Positions 1-14,007 of a stretch of DNA of 64,000 nucleotides are shown here, piece by piece. Below the pieces are notes generated by a model. The model made no database searches and had not been told where the DNA came from. It was given only the letters and a program-made list of their open reading frames with translations. The position numbers were made by a program, and so were the translations under genes. How positions within the stretch are numbered: the stretch's first letter is position 1; each line of letters begins with the position of its first letter. This stretch comes from Arthrobacter sp. CDRTa11. Its GTDB lineage: Bacteria; Actinomycetota; Actinomycetes; Actinomycetales; Micrococcaceae. The stretch spans positions 4,464,001-4,528,000 of the forward strand of contig NZ_CP044532.1 in assembly GCF_026427775.1 (NCBI RefSeq), read 5' to 3'.

Positions 1-115
1 TTTCGGTCAGGACACGAGGTAGTGGCTCGGCCGTCTCCGTCACCAGCGGGTTCACATTCCGTCCCGTTGGCTCCCTGTTCATCAGGAGTTCACGGACGTT
101 GAGTAAGTTCTGCCG

Positions 116-1009
116 GTGAACATATTCGATCTCTCCAGTCACGGCTTCGCCGTGCTCGACGACGACGACGATGACCCGGTGCTCGTCAGCCCCGACGGCA
201 CCCCGGTGGACACCTGGCGGGAAGGTTACCCGTATCAGGCCCGGATGACCAGGGAGCAGTACGAGATGGAGAAGCGGTTGCTTCAGATCGAACTGCTGAA
301 GCTGCAGAAGTGGATCAAAGCTTCGGGCCGTCGCCTGGTGGTGCTCTTCGAGGGACGCGACGCTGCAGGCAAAGGCGGCACCATCAAACGCTTCACAGAG
401 CACCTGAACCCGCGCGGGGCCCATGTTGTTGCCTTGGAGAAGCCCAGCGAGCGTGAGCAGTCGCAGTGGTACTTTCAGCGTTATGTCGCCCATCTGCCGG
501 CCGCCGGCGAGATCATCATGTTCGACCGCTCCTGGTACAACCGGGCCGGTGTGGAGAGGGTCATGGGATTTTGCACCGATGCCCAGTACCGTGGCTTCCT
601 CAGCCAGGCTCCAGCCTTCGAGCAGGTCCTGGCCAACGACGGAATCGATGTGGTGAAGTTCTGGTTTTCCGTTTCCCGTACTGAGCAGCTGACACGCTTC
701 GCAATCCGTCAGGTGGACCCTGTCCGGCAATGGAAGCTCTCCCCTATGGATCTGGCCTCCCTGGACAAATGGGATTCCTACACCGCAGCCAAGGAGAGCA
801 TGTTTCGTGCCACTGATACTCCCTGGGCGCCGTGGACTGTGGTGAAGAGCAACGACAAAAAGCGGGCCAGGCTGGAGGCAATGCGCCATGTGCTGCACAT
901 GTTTGATTACGAGGACAAAGACGTGGAGCTGGTAGCCGAGCCGGACAGCCTGATTGTTGGCCCGGCGTCGAGGATCTTCGAAGATGGTGAGCTTCCCAGT
1001 GCCGGTTAA
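116..1009 (+). CDS. ppk2: PPK2-family polyphosphate kinase
   Basis: Predicted cytosolic kinase that moves phosphate between polyphosphate and nucleotides. The 297-aa length fits a single-domain PPK2. A Walker A-like motif (FEGRDAAGKGG) lies near residues 78-88, and the Walker B/lid segment FDRSWYNRAGVE lies near residue 135. Both are diagnostic of PPK2. The start is GTG with no strong ribosome site; an acidic run of six Asp follows at residues 16-21. The 3' end overlaps the next gene's ATG (984) by 26 nt, so the two are probably co-transcribed and translationally coupled. Whether it favours ADP or GDP, or synthesis or use of polyphosphate, cannot be read from the sequence. In this context it could regenerate ATP for the ATP-hungry synthetase downstream (inference). 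Confidence 0.93.
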   Translation: MNIFDLSSHGFAVLDDDDDDPVLVSPDGTPVDTWREGYPYQARMTREQYEMEKRLLQIELLKLQKWIKASGRRLVVLFEGRDAAGKGGTIKRFTEHLNPRGAHVVALEKPSEREQSQWYFQRYVAHLPAAGEIIMFDRSWYNRAGVERVMGFCTDAQYRGFLSQAPAFEQVLANDGIDVVKFWFSVSRTEQLTRFAIRQVDPVRQWKLSPMDLASLDKWDSYTAAKESMFRATDTPWAPWTVVKSNDKKRARLEAMRHVLHMFDYEDKDVELVAEPDSLIVGPASRIFEDGELPSAG

Positions 1010-4000
1010 GCCCGTGGCTGCCCCAGCCGTCACTGGCGGGAACGGACCGGTGCCGATCCACAGCCCCCAGCTGCCCGGGGCGCTGAATGCACCCCCTGTC
1101 CGCACCCTGGTGGAGATTTTCGAAGCGACTGTGGCGGCGCATCCGGATTCCTCCGCCCTCGACGACGGCCGTGTGTGCCTCAGTTACGCCGAACTGCAGG
1201 CGGAGGTGAAGGCCTACGCCGGCCGGTTGCGACGTTCCGGCATAGGCGTCGGGGACAGGGTGGGGGTGCGGATCCCGTCCGGCACCAACGAACTGTATGT
1301 GGCGATACTTGCCGTCCTGTTTATTGGAGCCGCGTATGTGCCCGTGGATGCGGATGATCCGGATGAACGGGCCAGGCTCGTGTTTGCCGAAGCCGGGGTT
1401 TCCGCCGTCCTGGGCGCCGGCGGCATCCAGGACGGCCTCAAATCGGGAGCCTCCCGTCCCCCTGGCGAGCCCGGGGCGGAGCCCCGTTCGGCCAGCCCCG
1501 ATGATGATGCGTGGATTATCTTCACCTCCGGGTCTACCGGAACCCCGAAGGGAGTGGCGGTAACGCATCGCGCCGCCGCGGCATTCGTGGACGCCGAAGC
1601 CCGGCTGTTCCTGCAGGAGGAACCGCTGGGCCCTTCCGACCGCGTGTTGGCTGGCCTTTCAGTTGCCTTCGACGCTTCCTGCGAAGAGATGTGGCTCGCG
1701 TGGCGGCACGGGGCCTGCCTGGTGCCGGCCCCTCGGGCACTGGTGCGGACAGGAATGGACCTGGGTCCGTGGCTTGTCACCAAGGGCATAACTGCCGTCT
1801 CCACTGTGCCAACACTGGCGGCGCTCTGGCCGGTGGAAACGCTGGACGCAGTGCGGCTGCTGATCTTTGGCGGCGAATCCTGCCCGCCGGAACTGGTAGC
1901 CCGCCTCGCCGTACAGGAACGCGAGGTGTGGAACACCTATGGACCCACCGAGGCGACCGTGGTGTCCTGTGCAGCGCTCATGGACGGATCCGACCCAGTA
2001 AGAATCGGCCTTCCGCTGGATGGCTGGGACCTGGCCGTCGTGGACTCCCAGGGGATACCCGTCCCCGAGGGCAACGTTGGAGAGCTCATCATTGGCGGAG
2101 TGGGACTCGCCAGGTATCTGGACCCGGCCAAGGATGCGGAAAAGTTCGCGCCCATGGAAAGTCTGGGATGGAGCCGCGCCTACCGCAGCGGCGACCTGGT
2201 GCGCTTTGAACGTGAAGGACTTCTGTTCATGGGCAGGGCCGATGAACAGGTCAAACTCGGCGGGCGGCGGATTGAATTGGGGGAAGTTGATTCCGCCCTG
2301 CAGGCCCTCCCCGGAATCCACGGCGCAGCCGCCGCGGTGAAGAACACCGGTGCCGGGCACCAGGTCCTGGTCGGCTACCTGGCCCCCGGGCCGGGCGTTG
2401 AACCAGACCTTTCCGCTTTCCGTGACCTCCTCGCCCGGACGTTGCCGGCCGCGCTGGTTCCCATGCTGACCGTCGTCGGCTCCCTGCCGGTGAAGACCAG
2501 CGGCAAAGTGGACAGGGCCGCGCTGCCGTGGCCCCTCATATCTCCCGGCGAGGAAAGCACCGGAAGCGCGTCCCTGGATCCGGTTGCCGCTTGGATCGCG
2601 GAGCAGTGGACAGCTGTCCTGGGCACGGCACCGGAAGGCCTGGAGGCCGACTTTTTCGCTCACGGCGGTGGCAGCCTTGCCGCCGCTCAGCTGGTGTCTG
2701 CGCTGCGGACGCGATACCCAACCATCGCCGTCGCCGATATCTATTCGCGGCCCCGGCTGGGAGCCCTGGTGGAACTGGTCCTGGCATCCGGCGATGAAGC
2801 GGCTGCTTTTCCTGCCCGTGAGCGAACCGTCAGGCCGACGGCGCTGAAATCCCAAATCTTTCAGGTCCTGATCAGTGCGCCCCTGCATGTCCTGGTTGGC
2901 ATGCGCTGGCTGACTTACCTCATGGCTGCGAACAACCTGCTGTCCATGCTGGGCCTTCTCACAGCTGCAACCACCGTTTCCTGGTGGTGGGTTTTTGCTT
3001 CCTGGGCAGTGTTCGTCAGTCCGCTGGGCCGCATGGCACTTGCTGCGGCCGCGGCCCGGATACTCCTGCGAGGCGTTGTCCCGGGCGCTTATCCCCGCTC
3101 GGGCAAGGTGCACCTGAGGCTGTGGCTGGCGGAGCAGATCGCTGACCTCACCGGAGCTGTCAGTCTCGCCGGAGCCCCCTGGATTCCGTACTATGCCAGG
3201 GCATTGGGCGCGAAGATCGGCCCGAATGTTGACCTCCATTCCGTGCCCCCTGTCACCGGGATGCTCTACCTCGGTCCGGAGGCCTCGGTTGAGCCTGAAG
3301 TGGATCTGTCGGGCTGGTGGATCGACGGCGACCTGGTCCATATCGGACGCATCCATGTTGGCCGGGGCGCCACCATAGGTTCCCGCAGCACACTGATGCC
3401 CGGTGCCCGGGTGGGAGCCGGCGCTGAAGTGGCCCCCGGCTCCGCGGTTCTGGGAAAGGTCCGCGCGAACCAGCATTATGCAGGGTCACCTGCCGTACGG
3501 CGAGGCAAGGCCCGCCCAAGCTTTCCTGCAGAGCCGGCCCGCACCGGCGGATCCCGTCTTTGGTTCCCGGCGTACGCTGCCGGTTCCACACTGCTCGCAG
3601 CGATTCCGTTGTGCTCCGTGGTGGCCGCCGCCGCCGTGGTCGCCTGGGCAGTTCGCGGCCAGGGCTCCCTGGTGCAGGCCTGGCCGATTGTGCTGGGAGC
3701 TGTGCCGTTGGCGGCCGCCGTGTGGTTCATCACCAACCTCCTGCTCACCGCGGGGCTGGTCCGTATCCTTGGGATCGGACTGAAGGAAGGCCACTACCGC
3801 GTGCGGAGCCTGACGGGATGGCGGATCTGGGCCACGGAGCGGGTGCTCGATGCAGCCCGGGACCTGCTGTTTCCCATCTACGCAAGCCTGTTTACCCCGG
3901 TGTGGCTGAGAATGCTGGGCGCCAAGGTTGGCCGGAACGTCGAAGCGTCCACTGTGCTGCTCCTTCCGTCCATGACCACGGTTGGCGACGGGGCCTTCCT

Positions 4001-4952
4001 CGCCGATGACACCATGATCGCCTCCTACGAACTTGCCGGCGGCTGGATGAAAGTGGCTCCCGCGAAGATTGGCAAGCGCGCGTTTCTGGGGAACTCCGGA
4101 ATGACCGGGCCCGGCCGCAGCGTGCCCAAGAATTCCCTCGTCGCGGTGCTCTCCGCAACACCGGCCAAGGCCAAATCAGGCACGTCCTGGCTGGGCAGCC
4201 CTCCCGTCCGGCTCAGGAGGTCAAAGCTCGACGCCGACCAGACACTGACGTTCGATCCTCCCCTTCGGCTGAAGCTCTTTCGCGCGTGCTGGGAACTGTG
4301 CCGGGCGATTCCGGTGTTCCTGACAGTGGGTATTGCCGCAGGAGTCCTGCTGGCTCTTGACCTCCTGGCGGGCAGCACCGGCGGCTACATCACGGCGGCT
4401 CTTTTGGGCGGCGTGATCATCGTGGCTGCAGGTGCCGTGGCAGCGGCGGCCTCCGTCGTCGCCAAATGGCTCCTTGTGGGGCGAATCAAGGCCGGAGAAC
4501 ATCCGCTGTGGAGTTCTTTCATTTGGCGCAACGAGGTGGTGGACACCTTTGTCGAGATGGTCACAGCACCGTGGTTCGCCCGGTCCGCAACGGGCAGTCC
4601 TGCCCTCGTGTGGTGGCTGCGTGCCCTGGGTGCTCGAATCGGCTCCGGCAGTTGGTGCGAAAGCTACTGGCTGCCTGAAGCGGACCTCGTCACCCTGGGT
4701 GAAAACTCCACCGTCAACCGCGGCTGCGTGATCCAGACCCACCTCTTCCACGACCGCGTCATGAGCATGGCCGAGGTGACCTTGGACGACGGTGCCACCA
4801 TCGGTCCACACGGCGTGATTCTGCCGGCGGCACGCATCGGCGCCGGGGGCACCGTCGGCCCGGCGTCCCTCGTCATGCGCGGCGAAACCGTTCCCGCAGG
4901 GAGTTATTGGATCGGGAACCCTGTCAGCCCCTGGTCGGGAGGGCCATCATGA
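984..4952 (+). CDS. Pls-type membrane NRPS (polybasic amino acid synthetase-like)
   Basis: A 1322-aa protein with the layout of epsilon-poly-L-lysine synthetase (Pls, about 1319 aa). An adenylation domain covers about 40-540, with A3 TSGSTGTPKG near 182, A5 NTYGPTEAT, A7 YRSGDL, A8 GRADEQVKLGGRRIELGE and A10 SGKVDR. A carrier domain follows (FFAHGGGSL, Ser near 565). Then come three membrane-segment pairs (about 630-695, 865-927, 1095-1160), each followed by a soluble C-terminal repeat rich in hexapeptide-like turns. There is no canonical condensation or thioesterase domain. Aligned by eye to GrsA, the specificity code reads D-A-E-S-I-G-T-V-V-K, which is lysine-like. ATG 984 is preferred over an in-frame TTG at 954 because GAGGAT precedes it. 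It is coupled to PPK2 upstream and by an ATGA overlap to the M1 peptidase downstream. The family is sure; the lysine product is an inference. Confidence 0.9.
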   Translation: MVSFPVPVKPVAAPAVTGGNGPVPIHSPQLPGALNAPPVRTLVEIFEATVAAHPDSSALDDGRVCLSYAELQAEVKAYAGRLRRSGIGVGDRVGVRIPSGTNELYVAILAVLFIGAAYVPVDADDPDERARLVFAEAGVSAVLGAGGIQDGLKSGASRPPGEPGAEPRSASPDDDAWIIFTSGSTGTPKGVAVTHRAAAAFVDAEARLFLQEEPLGPSDRVLAGLSVAFDASCEEMWLAWRHGACLVPAPRALVRTGMDLGPWLVTKGITAVSTVPTLAALWPVETLDAVRLLIFGGESCPPELVARLAVQEREVWNTYGPTEATVVSCAALMDGSDPVRIGLPLDGWDLAVVDSQGIPVPEGNVGELIIGGVGLARYLDPAKDAEKFAPMESLGWSRAYRSGDLVRFEREGLLFMGRADEQVKLGGRRIELGEVDSALQALPGIHGAAAAVKNTGAGHQVLVGYLAPGPGVEPDLSAFRDLLARTLPAALVPMLTVVGSLPVKTSGKVDRAALPWPLISPGEESTGSASLDPVAAWIAEQWTAVLGTAPEGLEADFFAHGGGSLAAAQLVSALRTRYPTIAVADIYSRPRLGALVELVLASGDEAAAFPARERTVRPTALKSQIFQVLISAPLHVLVGMRWLTYLMAANNLLSMLGLLTAATTVSWWWVFASWAVFVSPLGRMALAAAAARILLRGVVPGAYPRSGKVHLRLWLAEQIADLTGAVSLAGAPWIPYYARALGAKIGPNVDLHSVPPVTGMLYLGPEASVEPEVDLSGWWIDGDLVHIGRIHVGRGATIGSRSTLMPGARVGAGAEVAPGSAVLGKVRANQHYAGSPAVRRGKARPSFPAEPARTGGSRLWFPAYAAGSTLLAAIPLCSVVAAAAVVAWAVRGQGSLVQAWPIVLGAVPLAAAVWFITNLLLTAGLVRILGIGLKEGHYRVRSLTGWRIWATERVLDAARDLLFPIYASLFTPVWLRMLGAKVGRNVEASTVLLLPSMTTVGDGAFLADDTMIASYELAGGWMKVAPAKIGKRAFLGNSGMTGPGRSVPKNSLVAVLSATPAKAKSGTSWLGSPPVRLRRSKLDADQTLTFDPPLRLKLFRACWELCRAIPVFLTVGIAAGVLLALDLLAGSTGGYITAALLGGVIIVAAGAVAAAASVVAKWLLVGRIKAGEHPLWSSFIWRNEVVDTFVEMVTAPWFARSATGSPALVWWLRALGARIGSGSWCESYWLPEADLVTLGENSTVNRGCVIQTHLFHDRVMSMAEVTLDDGATIGPHGVILPAARIGAGGTVGPASLVMRGETVPAGSYWIGNPVSPWSGGPS

Positions 4953-6433
4953 CCTTGCCCTCCGGCGCTGTGGGCTCAGTCGGCTACGATGAGCGGGTGA
5001 GCCGACCTCTTGCTTCCCCCGAACAGGGCCGGACACTCACCGGGGAACCCCTGCCGGATTCCTACACGCCGGGTCACGGCTCCCCAGACTTCAGCGTTTC
5101 CCGCTATGAGCTGTACCTTGACTACCGCGTGGCCACGAACCGGCTGGACGCTCACGTGACAGTCGCCGGGACCGCCATCACCCGGCTGCAGTCCATCATG
5201 CTGAACCTCTCGGGCCTGCGGGTCATCAAGGTCAGGGTGGACGGCAAGCGCCCCGCCCGCTTCATCCAGCGCGAGGGCCGGGTTGTTATCACTCCGGCCG
5301 CGCCTCTCGCCCCCGGATCCGAATTCAGCCTGGACATCCGCTATGAAGGCCGTCCGGGGCCGCTGCGCGGAAACTGGGGCGACGTCGGCTGGGAAGAACT
5401 GACCGACGGCGTCCTGGTCGCCGGGCAGCCAACAGGAGCACCCTCGTGGTTTCCCTGCAACGACCATCCCAGCCGCAAAGCCAGCTTCGGATTCACCGTC
5501 ACCACCGACATGAACTACCAGGTGGTCTGCAACGGGACCCTGGTGTCCAGGCATTCGAAGGCCAGCCGCGAGACTTGGGTTTACGAACAGGCCGAACCCA
5601 TGGCCACTTACCTCGCCACCGTACAGATCGGCCGCTACGAGATCGTTCCCCTCGCCGGGAGCGTCCCCCCGGCGAGAGCCGCAATCGCGGGCGCGGGAGC
5701 CGCCGTCGGGGGCATGCCAGTCACAGCCATCCCAGCCACCGGAAGCGGGGTCCGGCAGCTCGTCGCTGCTCCGACGGTCCTGATGGACCGGGCGCAGGAA
5801 GCGCTCGTCCGGCAGCGCGAGATGATGGCGACGTTCGAAACCTGCTTCGGGCCGTACCCCTTTCACTCTTATACCGTCGTCGTACCGGACGACGAACTGG
5901 AGATTCCCCTTGAAGCGCAGTCCCTGTCGATAATCGGCCGGAATCATTTGGATCTGAGGTGGGAATCCCAGCGGCTGATCGCCCACGAACTGGCGCACCA
6001 ATGGTTCGGGAATTCATTGACGGCCTCCTCTTGGAAGGACATCTGGCTGCACGAGGGGTTCGCCTGTTATGCCGAATGGCTGTGGTCAGAAGCGTCGGGG
6101 CAAGGATCGGCGGCAGCCCGGGCAGAGGCTGCCTGGGACGGCCTCGCTTCGAAACCGCAGGATCTGCAGATCGGCGATCCCGGCCCGGAACTGATGTTCG
6201 ATGACCGGGTCTACAAGCGCGGTGCACTGGCCCTGCACGCGTTGAGGACAGCCGTGGGCGACGTCCTCTTTTTCGGGCTTCTCAGGGCTTGGACCGAACG
6301 AAATTGTTTCGGATCAGTGTCCACCGGCGATCTGACGATACTGGCGCAGGAACTTTGTGGCAGCGTCCCCGGCTTTGACGCCGAAGCGATTCTCCGTCCC
6401 TGGCTCTACGAATCACTCCTGCCGCAGCGCTAA
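4949..6433 (+). CDS. M1-family zinc metallopeptidase
   Basis: A 494-aa gluzincin-type aminopeptidase. The zinc site HELAHQWF begins near residue 345, and the third ligand sits 18 residues later (LHEGFA), which is the exact M1 spacing. The usual GAMEN substrate motif is replaced by PLEAQ, keeping the Glu. There is no signal peptide or membrane segment. ATG 4949 overlaps the synthetase stop as ATGA, so I prefer it over an upstream in-frame TTG at 4907. Next to a Pls-like synthetase, a zinc aminopeptidase is a natural candidate for trimming or degrading the polycationic product for self-protection; this role is inferred. The last 21 nt overlap the convergent phosphopantetheinyl transferase gene. 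Confidence 0.9.
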   Translation: MTLPSGAVGSVGYDERVSRPLASPEQGRTLTGEPLPDSYTPGHGSPDFSVSRYELYLDYRVATNRLDAHVTVAGTAITRLQSIMLNLSGLRVIKVRVDGKRPARFIQREGRVVITPAAPLAPGSEFSLDIRYEGRPGPLRGNWGDVGWEELTDGVLVAGQPTGAPSWFPCNDHPSRKASFGFTVTTDMNYQVVCNGTLVSRHSKASRETWVYEQAEPMATYLATVQIGRYEIVPLAGSVPPARAAIAGAGAAVGGMPVTAIPATGSGVRQLVAAPTVLMDRAQEALVRQREMMATFETCFGPYPFHSYTVVVPDDELEIPLEAQSLSIIGRNHLDLRWESQRLIAHELAHQWFGNSLTASSWKDIWLHEGFACYAEWLWSEASGQGSAAARAEAAWDGLASKPQDLQIGDPGPELMFDDRVYKRGALALHALRTAVGDVLFFGLLRAWTERNCFGSVSTGDLTILAQELCGSVPGFDAEAILRPWLYESLLPQR

Positions 6434-7087
6434 GGCTGCGACAGTTCCCGATGGGAGCCCAAGGCGCGCCGGCTCCAGATCGGCCAGCAGGGCTCCTTCA
6501 AGGCGTTCTGCTGTGACGTCGCATGTTGCAGGGTCCCGTCCCAGCCCCTCGCCAGTGGATTTGAGGAATGCTTCCTTCCGGGTCCAGAACCGCGCCCGCT
6601 GACCACGCCCTTCCGCTGTTGTGGCCGGCGCCAAGCAAGTGCGTTCCCGTGGAGTCAGGACAAGAGCGTCAAAGCCGGGGAATGCTGTTCTTCCCGCCTG
6701 CTCCACATCTACACCTATTCCGCTCAGGCTGCCGCCGTCAGCGGCGCCGGCCAGGACAACCCAACCGTCCGCCCGGCTCAGGCTCAGTAGAGGCCCCGCT
6801 CCCCCATCCTGGAGGAGATAGCCCGGCTGGCCATGGTCCCCTTCTCCTCCGCCGCAACGGGTACATCTGTACGCCGCCACCAAAGCTGCGGGCGAAGTAC
6901 CTGCCAGCTCCGCAGCGAACAGTCGGAGCGCCGCCCTGCCGGCCAGGAAATCAGCAGCATCGGCGGGGTTGTGAAAAGTAGCGGCGCGTCGGTGTTCGGA
7001 AGAGTCAAGCAGCTTCAACTCGGCAGGGCCGGGGGCCGCCAAGGCTGCCGCCCTGACCAGAGCCCCTCCTATTTCCGTATCGCGCAC
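6413..7087 (-). CDS. Sfp-type 4'-phosphopantetheinyl transferase
   Basis: A 224-aa enzyme that attaches the CoA-derived phosphopantetheine arm to a Ser of carrier domains. Two diagnostic blocks are seen: GIGVDVEQ (Mg/CoA site) near residue 142, and FWTRKEAFLKSTGEGL, which holds the WxxKEA motif, near residue 185. The length is typical of Sfp-type rather than AcpS-type enzymes. The start is GTG 7087. It converges on the M1 gene with a 21-nt overlap. The carrier domain of the Pls-like synthetase 1.5 kb away needs such an enzyme, so this is probably its dedicated activator, although it may be the cell's general Sfp enzyme. Confidence 0.88.
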   Translation of the reverse strand: MRDTEIGGALVRAAALAAPGPAELKLLDSSEHRRAATFHNPADAADFLAGRAALRLFAAELAGTSPAALVAAYRCTRCGGGEGDHGQPGYLLQDGGAGPLLSLSRADGWVVLAGAADGGSLSGIGVDVEQAGRTAFPGFDALVLTPRERTCLAPATTAEGRGQRARFWTRKEAFLKSTGEGLGRDPATCDVTAERLEGALLADLEPARLGLPSGTVAALALRQE

Positions 7088-7135: not shown

Positions 7136-7909
7136 CTAGGCGGTGCTGAGCCGTCTAAGGGAGTAGTTCTTGAACCAGTGCCGGATGCCTTGAGGCAACC
7201 GTGGATAGACCACCGCAACCGTGCGCATCGTCCGGTCGAACTGCCGGTGATGCCGCGGACTCCACGGCAACCCGAAGCCTTCCCGGAGATGGTCGGGCAG
7301 GAGCCCAGCGGTGATGAAACGGACCAGGGGCATGCTCAGGCGAAGCCAGAGCGGACCGGTTGGCGGGTACATGAGGTCGCGGGCCACCCGGGCCGTGACG
7401 TCGTCGGGCTTCAGCGTCTGTATGCGCTCGTCCCAGTACGCGCGGAAGGCTGCACGGTCTGCCGGCCAGAGCTCCGGTGGCAGCTGAAGGGCTGTCCCGA
7501 GTTTGGCGTACTCACGGTAGACGCTCTCCGCCGTCTCATCGTCCAGCGCGCCGTAGATTCGTTCGTAGACAGTGACCGCTGTGTCGTAGAGGGTGGCCAC
7601 CACCCACAGCTGCGATTGCGGATCGAACGCGTCGTAGCCTGCGGAGCTGCCGTCAGGCTTGCGGCGAACCCGGGCATGGACATGATTGACTTTGCGGCGC
7701 ACCGCCTTCACCTGCTCCTCGTCGCCGTATGTCACGGCATACACGTAGGTGATGGTTGCCAGGAACCTGTCTAGCGGCCGGTCAACGAAGTTGCTGTGCT
7801 CGGCGACGCCGTGGCCCACGGCAGGGTTGGCGAGCTGCAGCAAAATGGCGCGCCCTGCCCCAGCGAGCAGGATGCCTTCGGCACCCATGTCGGCATTTCC
7901 TCGCACCAT
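7136..7909 (-). CDS. MpaB/DUF2236-family oxygenase-like protein
   Basis: A 257-aa protein with the pattern of the DUF2236 family, which includes latex-clearing protein (a haem rubber oxygenase) and fungal MpaB. Seen features are an N-terminal GAGRAILLQLANPAVGHGVAEHS block, then RFLATITYVYAVTYGDEEQ, and a central region with WVVATLYDTAVTVYE. Most actinobacterial members have no known substrate, and I cannot assign one here. It is a single gene, 48 nt upstream of the phosphopantetheinyl transferase start on the same strand, so co-transcription is possible. Confidence 0.82.
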   Translation of the reverse strand: MVRGNADMGAEGILLAGAGRAILLQLANPAVGHGVAEHSNFVDRPLDRFLATITYVYAVTYGDEEQVKAVRRKVNHVHARVRRKPDGSSAGYDAFDPQSQLWVVATLYDTAVTVYERIYGALDDETAESVYREYAKLGTALQLPPELWPADRAAFRAYWDERIQTLKPDDVTARVARDLMYPPTGPLWLRLSMPLVRFITAGLLPDHLREGFGLPWSPRHHRQFDRTMRTVAVVYPRLPQGIRHWFKNYSLRRLSTA

Positions 7910-12798: not shown

Positions 12799-14007
12799 CT
12801 AGGTACCAGGTGCTGCCGGTGCCAGGTACAGGCTGACGGCGGTCCCGCCGCTCTGGCTGGCAGAGATGTCCAGGCGGCCGCCGTGGGCCGCCGCGATCCT
12901 GGCACACGTGGCCAGGCCCAGCCCGGATCCTGGCGGGTCCCCCTCCCGGTGCAGCCGGACCAGCGGCTCAAGCACCCGGCGTCGGTCCCCCGGACTGATT
13001 CCCTTGCCGTTATCCGCTACCTGGATGACGACGCCGGCCCCGAAGTTGTCTCCGTGGATCCGGATGACAGGGGGAACCCCGGACCGCCGGTAAGCCACGG
13101 CATTCTGGATGAGGTTCTGCAGCGCCACCCGCATCTGGCTTCCGTCAGCATCGAAATAGAAATCCTCACACTCCACCACGGCTTCGGCTTCCCGCAGGCC
13201 AAGGTTTAGGTCGTCGGCGACGTCCTTCACGAGGTCTGCCAGCGACAGCCGGGACCTGACCAGCGAACCACCAATGGATGCGAAGGTGAGCAGCTCCTCC
13301 ACCATGGACAGCATCCTCCGCGCACTGTGACCCACCACCTCGAGGTACTCGGCAGCTGAGTCGCTATCCGTTTCCATGGAACCTAGCTCCACGTAGCCAA
13401 GGATTGACGTCAACGGATTGCGGAGATCGTGGCTGACCCTGCCGGTGAACTCGGCCAGCCGCTCATTGCTGCCCCTGGTTTCGGTCAAGGCTTCGGCCAG
13501 CGCGCCGTGAAGGGTGGTGACACGCCGGGCCGCAAGCAGGCGGGTATGCAGGACGAAGGGGTCCAGCGGTTTGGTCACGTAATCATCAGCCCCGGCTTTC
13601 ATGCCTTGCAGGACGTCCTCCCGCGCCCCGTGGGACGTCAGCAGGACCAGGTAGGCATAGGACCCCGACTCAGCGGCGCGGATGGCCCGGCACAGTTCAA
13701 ACCCGTTGAGCCCGGGCATCATGAGGTCCGTTACCACCACCTCGGGATGATGGTCCTGGTATAGCTGCCACGCTATGTCCCCGTCGGAGGCCACAATGCA
13801 GTGATGGCCGGACTTCTCGACGGCGGCCCTGGCAACCAGCAGGGATCCTGGATCGTCGTCCACCACCAGCACCGTCATGGCTGGCAGGGGGTTATCGGAA
13901 CCTGGAAGCCCTAAGGGTTCCACGGTCGGACGCGGAACCACCATTTGTCTTTGGACCGGCCCCGTACCCACCGGAAAAGATTCCCCCACTATGTGCCCCC
14001 TGGCCAT
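12799..14007 (-). CDS. Response regulator-histidine kinase hybrid
   Basis: A 402-aa cytosolic signalling protein. The N-terminal receiver domain (about 44-160) has VLVVDDDPGS, phospho-acceptor Asp in VVVTDLMMPG and the Lys in DDYVTKPLDPF. The dimerisation/phospho-acceptor helix contains VSHDLRNPLTSILGY (His near 192). An HATPase domain has LIQNAVAYRR (N box), VADNGKGISPGD (G1) and GSGLGLATCARI (G2). There are no membrane segments, so it probably receives phosphate or partner input through REC. No separate response regulator lies beside it. The ATG at 14007 is used, but in-frame ATGs at residues 22 and 44 are possible. A terminator follows. Confidence 0.9.
   Translation of the reverse strand: MARGHIVGESFPVGTGPVQRQMVVPRPTVEPLGLPGSDNPLPAMTVLVVDDDPGSLLVARAAVEKSGHHCIVASDGDIAWQLYQDHHPEVVVTDLMMPGLNGFELCRAIRAAESGSYAYLVLLTSHGAREDVLQGMKAGADDYVTKPLDPFVLHTRLLAARRVTTLHGALAEALTETRGSNERLAEFTGRVSHDLRNPLTSILGYVELGSMETDSDSAAEYLEVVGHSARRMLSMVEELLTFASIGGSLVRSRLSLADLVKDVADDLNLGLREAEAVVECEDFYFDADGSQMRVALQNLIQNAVAYRRSGVPPVIRIHGDNFGAGVVIQVADNGKGISPGDRRRVLEPLVRLHREGDPPGSGLGLATCARIAAAHGGRLDISASQSGGTAVSLYLAPAAPGT

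Follow-up and report, generated by a model that had tools for sequence, protein, structure and literature searches.

A predicted epsilon-poly-L-lysine gene cluster of Arthrobacter sp. CDRTa11 with a class I polyphosphate kinase 2 gene overlapping its synthetase

Introduction

Why should a gene for a polyphosphate kinase 2 (PPK2) lie in front of, and overlap, the gene for a peptide polymerase? The question is raised by a locus of Arthrobacter sp. CDRTa11 (contig NZ_CP044532.1), found at 116-7087 of the 64,000-nucleotide stretch that was analysed (contig positions 4,464,001 to 4,528,000, forward strand; hereafter the window). The four genes that a sequence-only reading had placed together there are all present:

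116..1009, plus strand: PPK2, class-I-type polyphosphate kinase 2 (TIGR03707, 380 bits, cut-off 302)
984 or 987..4952, plus strand: Pls synthetase, predicted to make epsilon-poly-L-lysine, with A, T and membrane C1-C2-C3 region
984..1009, plus strand: overlap of the PPK2 and Pls reading frames (26 nucleotides from ATG 984, 23 from GTG 987)
4949..6433, plus strand: M1 zinc metallopeptidase in the place of PldII (Pfam Peptidase_M1 and Peptidase_M1_N, HExxH-x18-E)
6413..7087, minus strand: Sfp-type phosphopantetheinyl transferase (PPTase; PF01648, 45 bits, cut-off 25)

The best reading of the locus is an epsilon-poly-L-lysine (epsilon-PL) cluster in which polyphosphate (polyP) helps to recharge the ATP spent by Pls, with a probability of about 0.57; confidence in the recharging role of PPK2 itself is moderate. 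This reading is favoured because the synthetase can be identified and has a lysine pocket, an M1 gene follows Pls throughout the named loci, the only Sfp-size PPTase found in the genome lies in the cluster and a PPK1 gene is present; because this type of PPK2 is linked to Pls in 45 of the 46 family genomes that have it, in ten genera, and all 46 have Pls, including the one in which the two are unlinked (G198); and because the slot used by relatives is empty of the four genes in this genome, with a cluster of another Pls lineage located elsewhere and showing a PPK2-Pls overlap that L004 and L005 also have.

Part of this system is already known. Jiang et al. (PMC8117764) reported a pls-peptidase operon and homologues of Pls in coryneforms, Arthrobacter being among the carriers that they list, and proved the product of one coryneform enzyme, the Pls of Corynebacterium variabile, by expression in Streptomyces coelicolor. 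Pls and the peptidase are therefore the known core, and PPK2 is the new part; the main text of that paper has no hits for "polyphosphate" or "phosphopantethein". No natural ppk2-pls neighbourhood was found in the literature searched, from which subscription papers were mostly absent, nor was one mentioned on a term search of PMC10012588, PMC11274744, PMC8117764, PMC10522769 and PMC8776046, although engineered polyphosphate kinases in epsilon-PL producers were found.

The synthetase and its predicted product

Pls matches the Pls/PosA terminal-domain model TIGR02353 with 691 bits over profile positions 2-695 of 695, and its Pfam matches are restricted to AMP-binding, PP-binding and Hexapep, without the C and TE domains of ordinary nonribosomal peptide synthetases. 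The T domain has GGGS at residue 561. The proposed order A-T-TM-C1-TM-C2-TM-C3 (TM, transmembrane) stands for the A, T and full terminal domains, whereas its six membrane segments were seen only in part: at a Kyte-Doolittle cut of 1.6 two membrane pairs stand out (approximately residues 863-933 and 1104-1166), and the first pair (approximately 620-703) becomes visible only at a lower cut of 1.2.

The best solved match of the A domain is that of Streptomyces albulus (7wew, 666 bits), the next chain reaching 413 bits over two stretches. The ten pocket positions, which we take to be those given by PheA mapping, read DAESIGTVVK in 134 of 135 aligned rows including that of the window, the remaining row being truncated, and 7wew has the same letters as the window Pls at these positions. 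The ornithine enzyme PosA has the pocket DMEHNGTVSK, and replacement of its Met by Ala was tied to lysine use by the authors (PMC10522769). Because the window pocket has Ala where PosA has Met, and agrees with 7wew, lysine is the predicted monomer and epsilon-PL is a strong product prediction; the proposal of a Pls-type isopeptide synthetase for this locus, predicted to use L-lysine, is supported by domain model, structural match and pocket. A polymer of another diamino acid (ornithine, diaminobutyrate or beta-lysine) is conceivable, since the Pls/PosA family includes such enzymes (PMC10522769), but the lysine-linked Ala and the identity with 7wew make this highly improbable. PosA of Acinetobacter baumannii resembles the window Pls in its A-T-membrane architecture, and differs in its ornithine pocket and in being encoded by a single-gene operon (PMC10522769).

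The start of Pls bears on how closely it is joined to PPK2. Two named loci, L004 of Arthrobacter rhizosphaerae and L005, have PPK2 upstream of Pls as in the window, and in both the codon corresponding to ATG 984 is ACG, whereas the next codon, GTG at 987, is usable as a Pls start in all three; GTG 987 is therefore the more likely start. Of the overlap chain originally described, the ATGA junction of Pls and M1 stands, while the 26-nucleotide overlap of PPK2 and Pls would hold only for an ATG 984 start and otherwise becomes 23 nucleotides. The frame overlap is kept in L004 and L005, and translational coupling of PPK2 and Pls is possible. A search for a consensus promoter or terminator upstream of PPK2 gave no match, a consensus test that says little for this organism. 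In comparison with L004 and L005, the ratio of nonsynonymous to synonymous substitution rates (dN/dS) is approximately 0.035-0.043 for PPK2, 0.07-0.09 for Pls, 0.11-0.13 for M1 and 0.22-0.23 for PPTase, which suggests purifying selection on all four.

Predicted activation and possible turnover of the product

The PPTase has an ACPS superfamily domain in approximately 230 amino acids, with a GxGVD motif at 123 and KEAxxK at 171, although its matches to NCBIfam models are below their cut-offs. A search of the host genome for ACPS domains returned this protein and one AcpS-size frame of 118 codons, and nothing else. The assignment as an Sfp-type PPTase is borne out by PF01648 and the motifs, and the enzyme, the sole one of Sfp size found in the genome, is predicted to activate the Pls T domain. 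Its gene lies on the minus strand and converges on the other three, as had been described, with a tail-to-tail overlap of 21 nucleotides with M1. Among the 80 named loci, which are the best 80 of at least 592 confirmed, a PPTase gene lies within 6 kilobases (kb) of Pls in 31.

The M1 protein has HExxH-x18-E at residue 346, and its NCBIfam matches are far below their cut-offs (PepN, for example, at 78 bits). All 80 named loci have an M1 gene downstream of Pls, at distances of up to about 2.2 kb, and in the window it follows pls directly through the ATGA overlap, so that the presence of a peptidase in the PldII place agrees with the sequence-only reading. In S. albulus, PldII is translationally coupled to pls (PMC9223678). 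That pls-pldII pair resembles the window in its Pls type and predicted substrate, judged by the 7wew A domain, and in having a coupled gene for a degrading peptidase straight after pls; it differs in that neither a PPK2 nor a PPTase is described beside it in the part of PMC9223678 available. A role of M1 in product turnover is suggested by the position of its gene and not by homology with PldII.

The polyphosphate kinase and the proposed mechanism

The PPK2 has a Walker A motif, GRDAAGK, at residue 80 and DRS at 137. Its nearest solved chains are 5ll0 and 4yeg (FtPPK2), gap-free over 251 residues, and the Walker motifs of FtPPK2 and other class I PPK2s are kept. A class I enzyme is predicted, which would convert polyP and ADP or GDP to ATP or GTP. 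No link of these class I PPK2s with peptide synthesis is described in the available text of PMC4748334, in which respect the window enzyme differs from them.

In the proposed mechanism, PPTase would arm the carrier domain of Pls, which would then adenylate L-lysine at the cost of one ATP converted to AMP per lysine, load it onto the carrier and, through its membrane region, join lysines via the epsilon-amino group. The M1 peptidase may trim or degrade the polymer, with consequences for chain length and self-protection. Adenylate kinase, assumed to be the housekeeping enzyme, would turn AMP into ADP, and PPK2 could turn ADP back into ATP with polyP from PPK1, the gene for which is present elsewhere in the genome, so that ATP would stay high while Pls runs. 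Both enzymes would be needed for recharging because adenylation releases AMP and characterised class I PPK2s take ADP or GDP. Gene identities, motifs, overlaps, family-level clustering, purifying selection and a PPK1 gene are what the analysis shows; the product, co-expression, the direction in which PPK2 runs, its energy supply to Pls and the role of the peptidase are inferred.

The recharging reading is plausible because similar additions raised epsilon-PL in S. albulus. Flask cultures given PAP and PPK2B produced 21.24% more epsilon-PL and had 71.56% more intracellular ATP, and polyP6 at 1.0 g/L increased batch production by 28.37% (PMC10012588). The engineered strain PL05 (PAP and PPK2B) combines an ADP-to-ATP PPK2 with Pls, as does the window, but is man-made and adds the AMP-using PAP, whereas the window cluster is without an AMP-using partner (PMC10012588).

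PPK2 might instead be mainly synthetic, the polyP serving as a counter-ion for binding or storing the polycation and limiting self-toxicity. Class I PPK2s can make polyP, Mn2+ lifting this activity of Pseudomonas aeruginosa PPK2A to the level of PPK1 (PMC8776046), and a polyanion and a polycation would be expected to bind. Nevertheless, PPK2A has a 75-fold preference for phosphorylating nucleoside diphosphates over synthesising polyP (PMC8776046) and the genome has its separate PPK1, so this function is judged improbable. An acidic N-terminal run, DxDDDDP, might hint at binding of the polycation but also occurs in unlinked PPK2s. Asp is found at positions 17, 18 and 19 in 42, 43 and 44 of the 44 cluster-type PPK2 rows, respectively, and in 0, 1 and 2 of 21 others; the idea that Pls or the polycation docks on this run was rejected, since several unlinked PPK2s from outside the family have it.

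Linkage of PPK2 and Pls within the family

Among 295 genomes of the host's family, Pls (E 1e-150 or better) was found in 159 and some PPK2 in 290. The window's PPK2 type was defined by a best match of at least 459 bits, the next score being 437; some lower-scoring, shorter matches outside this set reach 68-70% identity. The type occurs in 46 of the 295 genomes. Linkage was assessed, among the matches listed, from 109 PPK2 places (the whole high tier of 46 and 63 with lower scores) and from Pls places of at least 54% identity in 126 genomes. In all but one of the 46, PPK2 and Pls share a strand and are no more than 8.5 kb apart; PPK2 is downstream of Pls in 44 of the 45 linked genomes and upstream only in that of the window. 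The exception is G198, of the same genus, in which an 87% identical PPK2 is on another contig than Pls. As a partial control, of the 63 lower-scoring rows, 46 came from genomes with a Pls place taken in (the other 17 were left out), and two of these 46 are within 20 kb of Pls, both in genome G244 and both on the opposite strand.

The usual gene orders in linked loci are Pls, M1, PPTase (reverse) and PPK2, or Pls, M1 and PPK2. In the PPK2 tree of 65 rows, 43 of them linked and 22 unlinked, three changes of label are required, and none of 500 shuffles gave so few; the clustering is descriptive, as near relatives make any label cluster. The Pls tree held 61 of 62 rows after a 31-residue row was dropped, and some genomes were entered twice. 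PPK2 linkage as a general property of Pls was rejected, since PPK2 is within 6 kb of Pls in 4 of the 80 named loci and is linked to it in 45 of the 159 Pls-bearing family genomes.

Several further features of these loci were observed. The PPK2 gene of G198 (L105, 3195-4100) adjoins genes that read, from their translations, as dnaK, grpE and dnaJ. G244 has two Pls genes, and the one of the window's Pls lineage is in L085 (G244:C1:3749000-3768000); 2.5 kb upstream of it, on the other strand, is a PPK2 from a different clade, which may be a further association or chance. In L132, a linked Pls-M1-PPK2 cluster is preceded upstream by a second Pls-like gene (12-3431, 49% identity), which is on the opposite strand. 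A degenerate PPK2 fragment covering residues 1-85, with a frame break, is present at L103 8873-9126 (G000:C1 2428872-2429125); it is 83% identical to the window PPK2 over residues 21-85, is closest to the window, L004, L005 and G198 types and reads as a remnant of another copy.

Possible shared descent and the chromosomal slot

The linkage may also be read as inheritance of position. On this account, an ordinary epsilon-PL cluster of Pls, peptidase and PPTase would lie beside a housekeeping actinobacterial class I PPK2 through a single inherited insertion between pheST and argCJBD, subsequently moved as a block in the window lineage. The genes beside the cluster in relatives include PheT (27 of 41 linked and 16 of 19 unlinked loci), PheS, ArgC (25 and 12, respectively), ArgJ, ArgB and ArgD, families that were named from sequences and with counts limited by stretch length and gene calls. 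A quinone-oxidoreductase-like gene is next to Pls in relatives' loci. In many relatives, with or without PPK2, the cluster genes lie between pheST and argCJBD, and this common pheT-argC slot, together with the frequent occurrence of Pls without PPK2, favours such a bystander. In G239 and G008, other genes are inserted between M1 and PPTase-PPK2, and PPK2 remains on the pheT side, as position alone predicts; these insertions were therefore rejected as evidence of functional linkage, and the odds were shifted slightly from recharging towards the bystander.

The same type of PPK2 is found unlinked outside the family. At E 1e-138 or better, it occurs in 18 further genomes of 396 in an order sample and in 59 of 394 in a class sample. 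Loci were fetched from 40 of these 77 genomes, mostly the best-scoring and with no random draw, five of the stretches being shortened by contig ends, and neither Pls nor M1 was within about 8 kb of PPK2 in any of the 40. Likewise, PPK2 was near Pls in none of the 49 named loci from outside the family (a split of 31 family and 49 other made from record titles). Conservation of the PPK2-synthetase-M1 neighbourhood in relatives, the lack of which was to count against the sequence-only reading, accordingly holds inside the family, in 45 genomes, and fails outside it. A Pls-only subfamily of PPK2 was rejected, the type being common and unlinked in other actinobacterial families; on the loci fetched, the enzyme is a widespread actinobacterial class I PPK2 that joined the pls neighbourhood in one family and is not Pls-specific. 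In L226 (G432:C78:10351-12119), two PPK2 genes of this type are side by side, converging and approximately 60 bases apart.

The window lineage fits a bystander less readily. The pheT-argC slot of the window's genome is occupied by an oxidoreductase-like and a desaturase-like gene and by none of the four; the cluster is found elsewhere, PPK2 preceding Pls, and lacks the old flanks. A quick tree places the window Pls with L004 and L005 in a separate lineage; in the sisters of that lineage, L006, L085 and L086, this PPK2 type is not next to Pls (L086 being near a contig end). The window PPK2 groups with those of L004, L005 and G198 (100/99 in the PPK2 tree), and it either moved with the cluster and changed position or joined anew. 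The new position, tight frame overlap, other Pls lineage and absent flanks all speak against a bystander, as does G198, which has both genes though unlinked. The bystander is therefore considered unlikely, albeit the most serious competitor of recharging.

Weighing the recharging reading

Apart from the absence of Pls near this PPK2 outside the family, a number of observations weigh against recharging. Characterised class I PPK2s use ADP or GDP and not AMP (PMC4748334, PMC8776046), and in batch tests at pH 4.0 the production of the recombinant S. albulus strains was not significantly changed (PMC10012588). C. variabile was without detectable epsilon-PL under test, though its Pls works elsewhere (PMC8117764). 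PPK2 is dispensable in the family, 113 of the 159 Pls-bearing genomes being without this type. In at least 17 of the 38 linked loci fetched, PPTase is on the other strand between M1 and PPK2, and those loci are therefore not one simple transcript. The modelled active-site residues of PldII do not suggest an HExxH enzyme (PMC9223678), unlike the window M1, and equating the two is unsure. Moreover, many linked genomes share the slot, so that linkage and co-loss could both stem from one event, and a single deletion could take out PPK2 together with Pls in most of the 46 genomes with this PPK2 type; one inherited insertion would look alike, which weakens the linkage as functional evidence. Although the recharging hypothesis can be tested, shared descent is an ordinary rival explanation of the link.

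Recharging by polyP nevertheless remains the preferred reading. A stronger form, in which the window encodes a natural polyphosphate-fuelled peptide polymerase with PPK2 co-translated with Pls and the coupling rebuilt elsewhere in the window lineage, is put forward tentatively, the balance lying somewhat against it. In this form, stored phosphate could be turned into an antimicrobial polycation by cells whose respiration is poor. A natural PPK2-Pls pairing would make it possible to test directly whether secondary metabolism is powered by polyphosphate stores. Epsilon-PL is a natural, industrially used food preservative. Its production is stated to be limited by the supply of ATP (PMC10012588), and a natural PPK2-Pls pairing would give an evolved part for this purpose; found in a portion of one bacterial family, the pairing resembles a combination that was deliberately engineered. 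The locus also illustrates clearly how a biosynthetic cluster can occupy one slot (pheST/argCJBD) in many family members and, in one lineage, be missing from it and found rearranged elsewhere.

Neighbouring genes in the window

The PPTase gene is adjoined at 7136-7909 by a gene for a protein with an MPAB/Lcp-type oxygenase domain (PF09995). Further along the window, 12799-14007 encodes a receiver-first fusion of a response regulator receiver domain and a histidine kinase.

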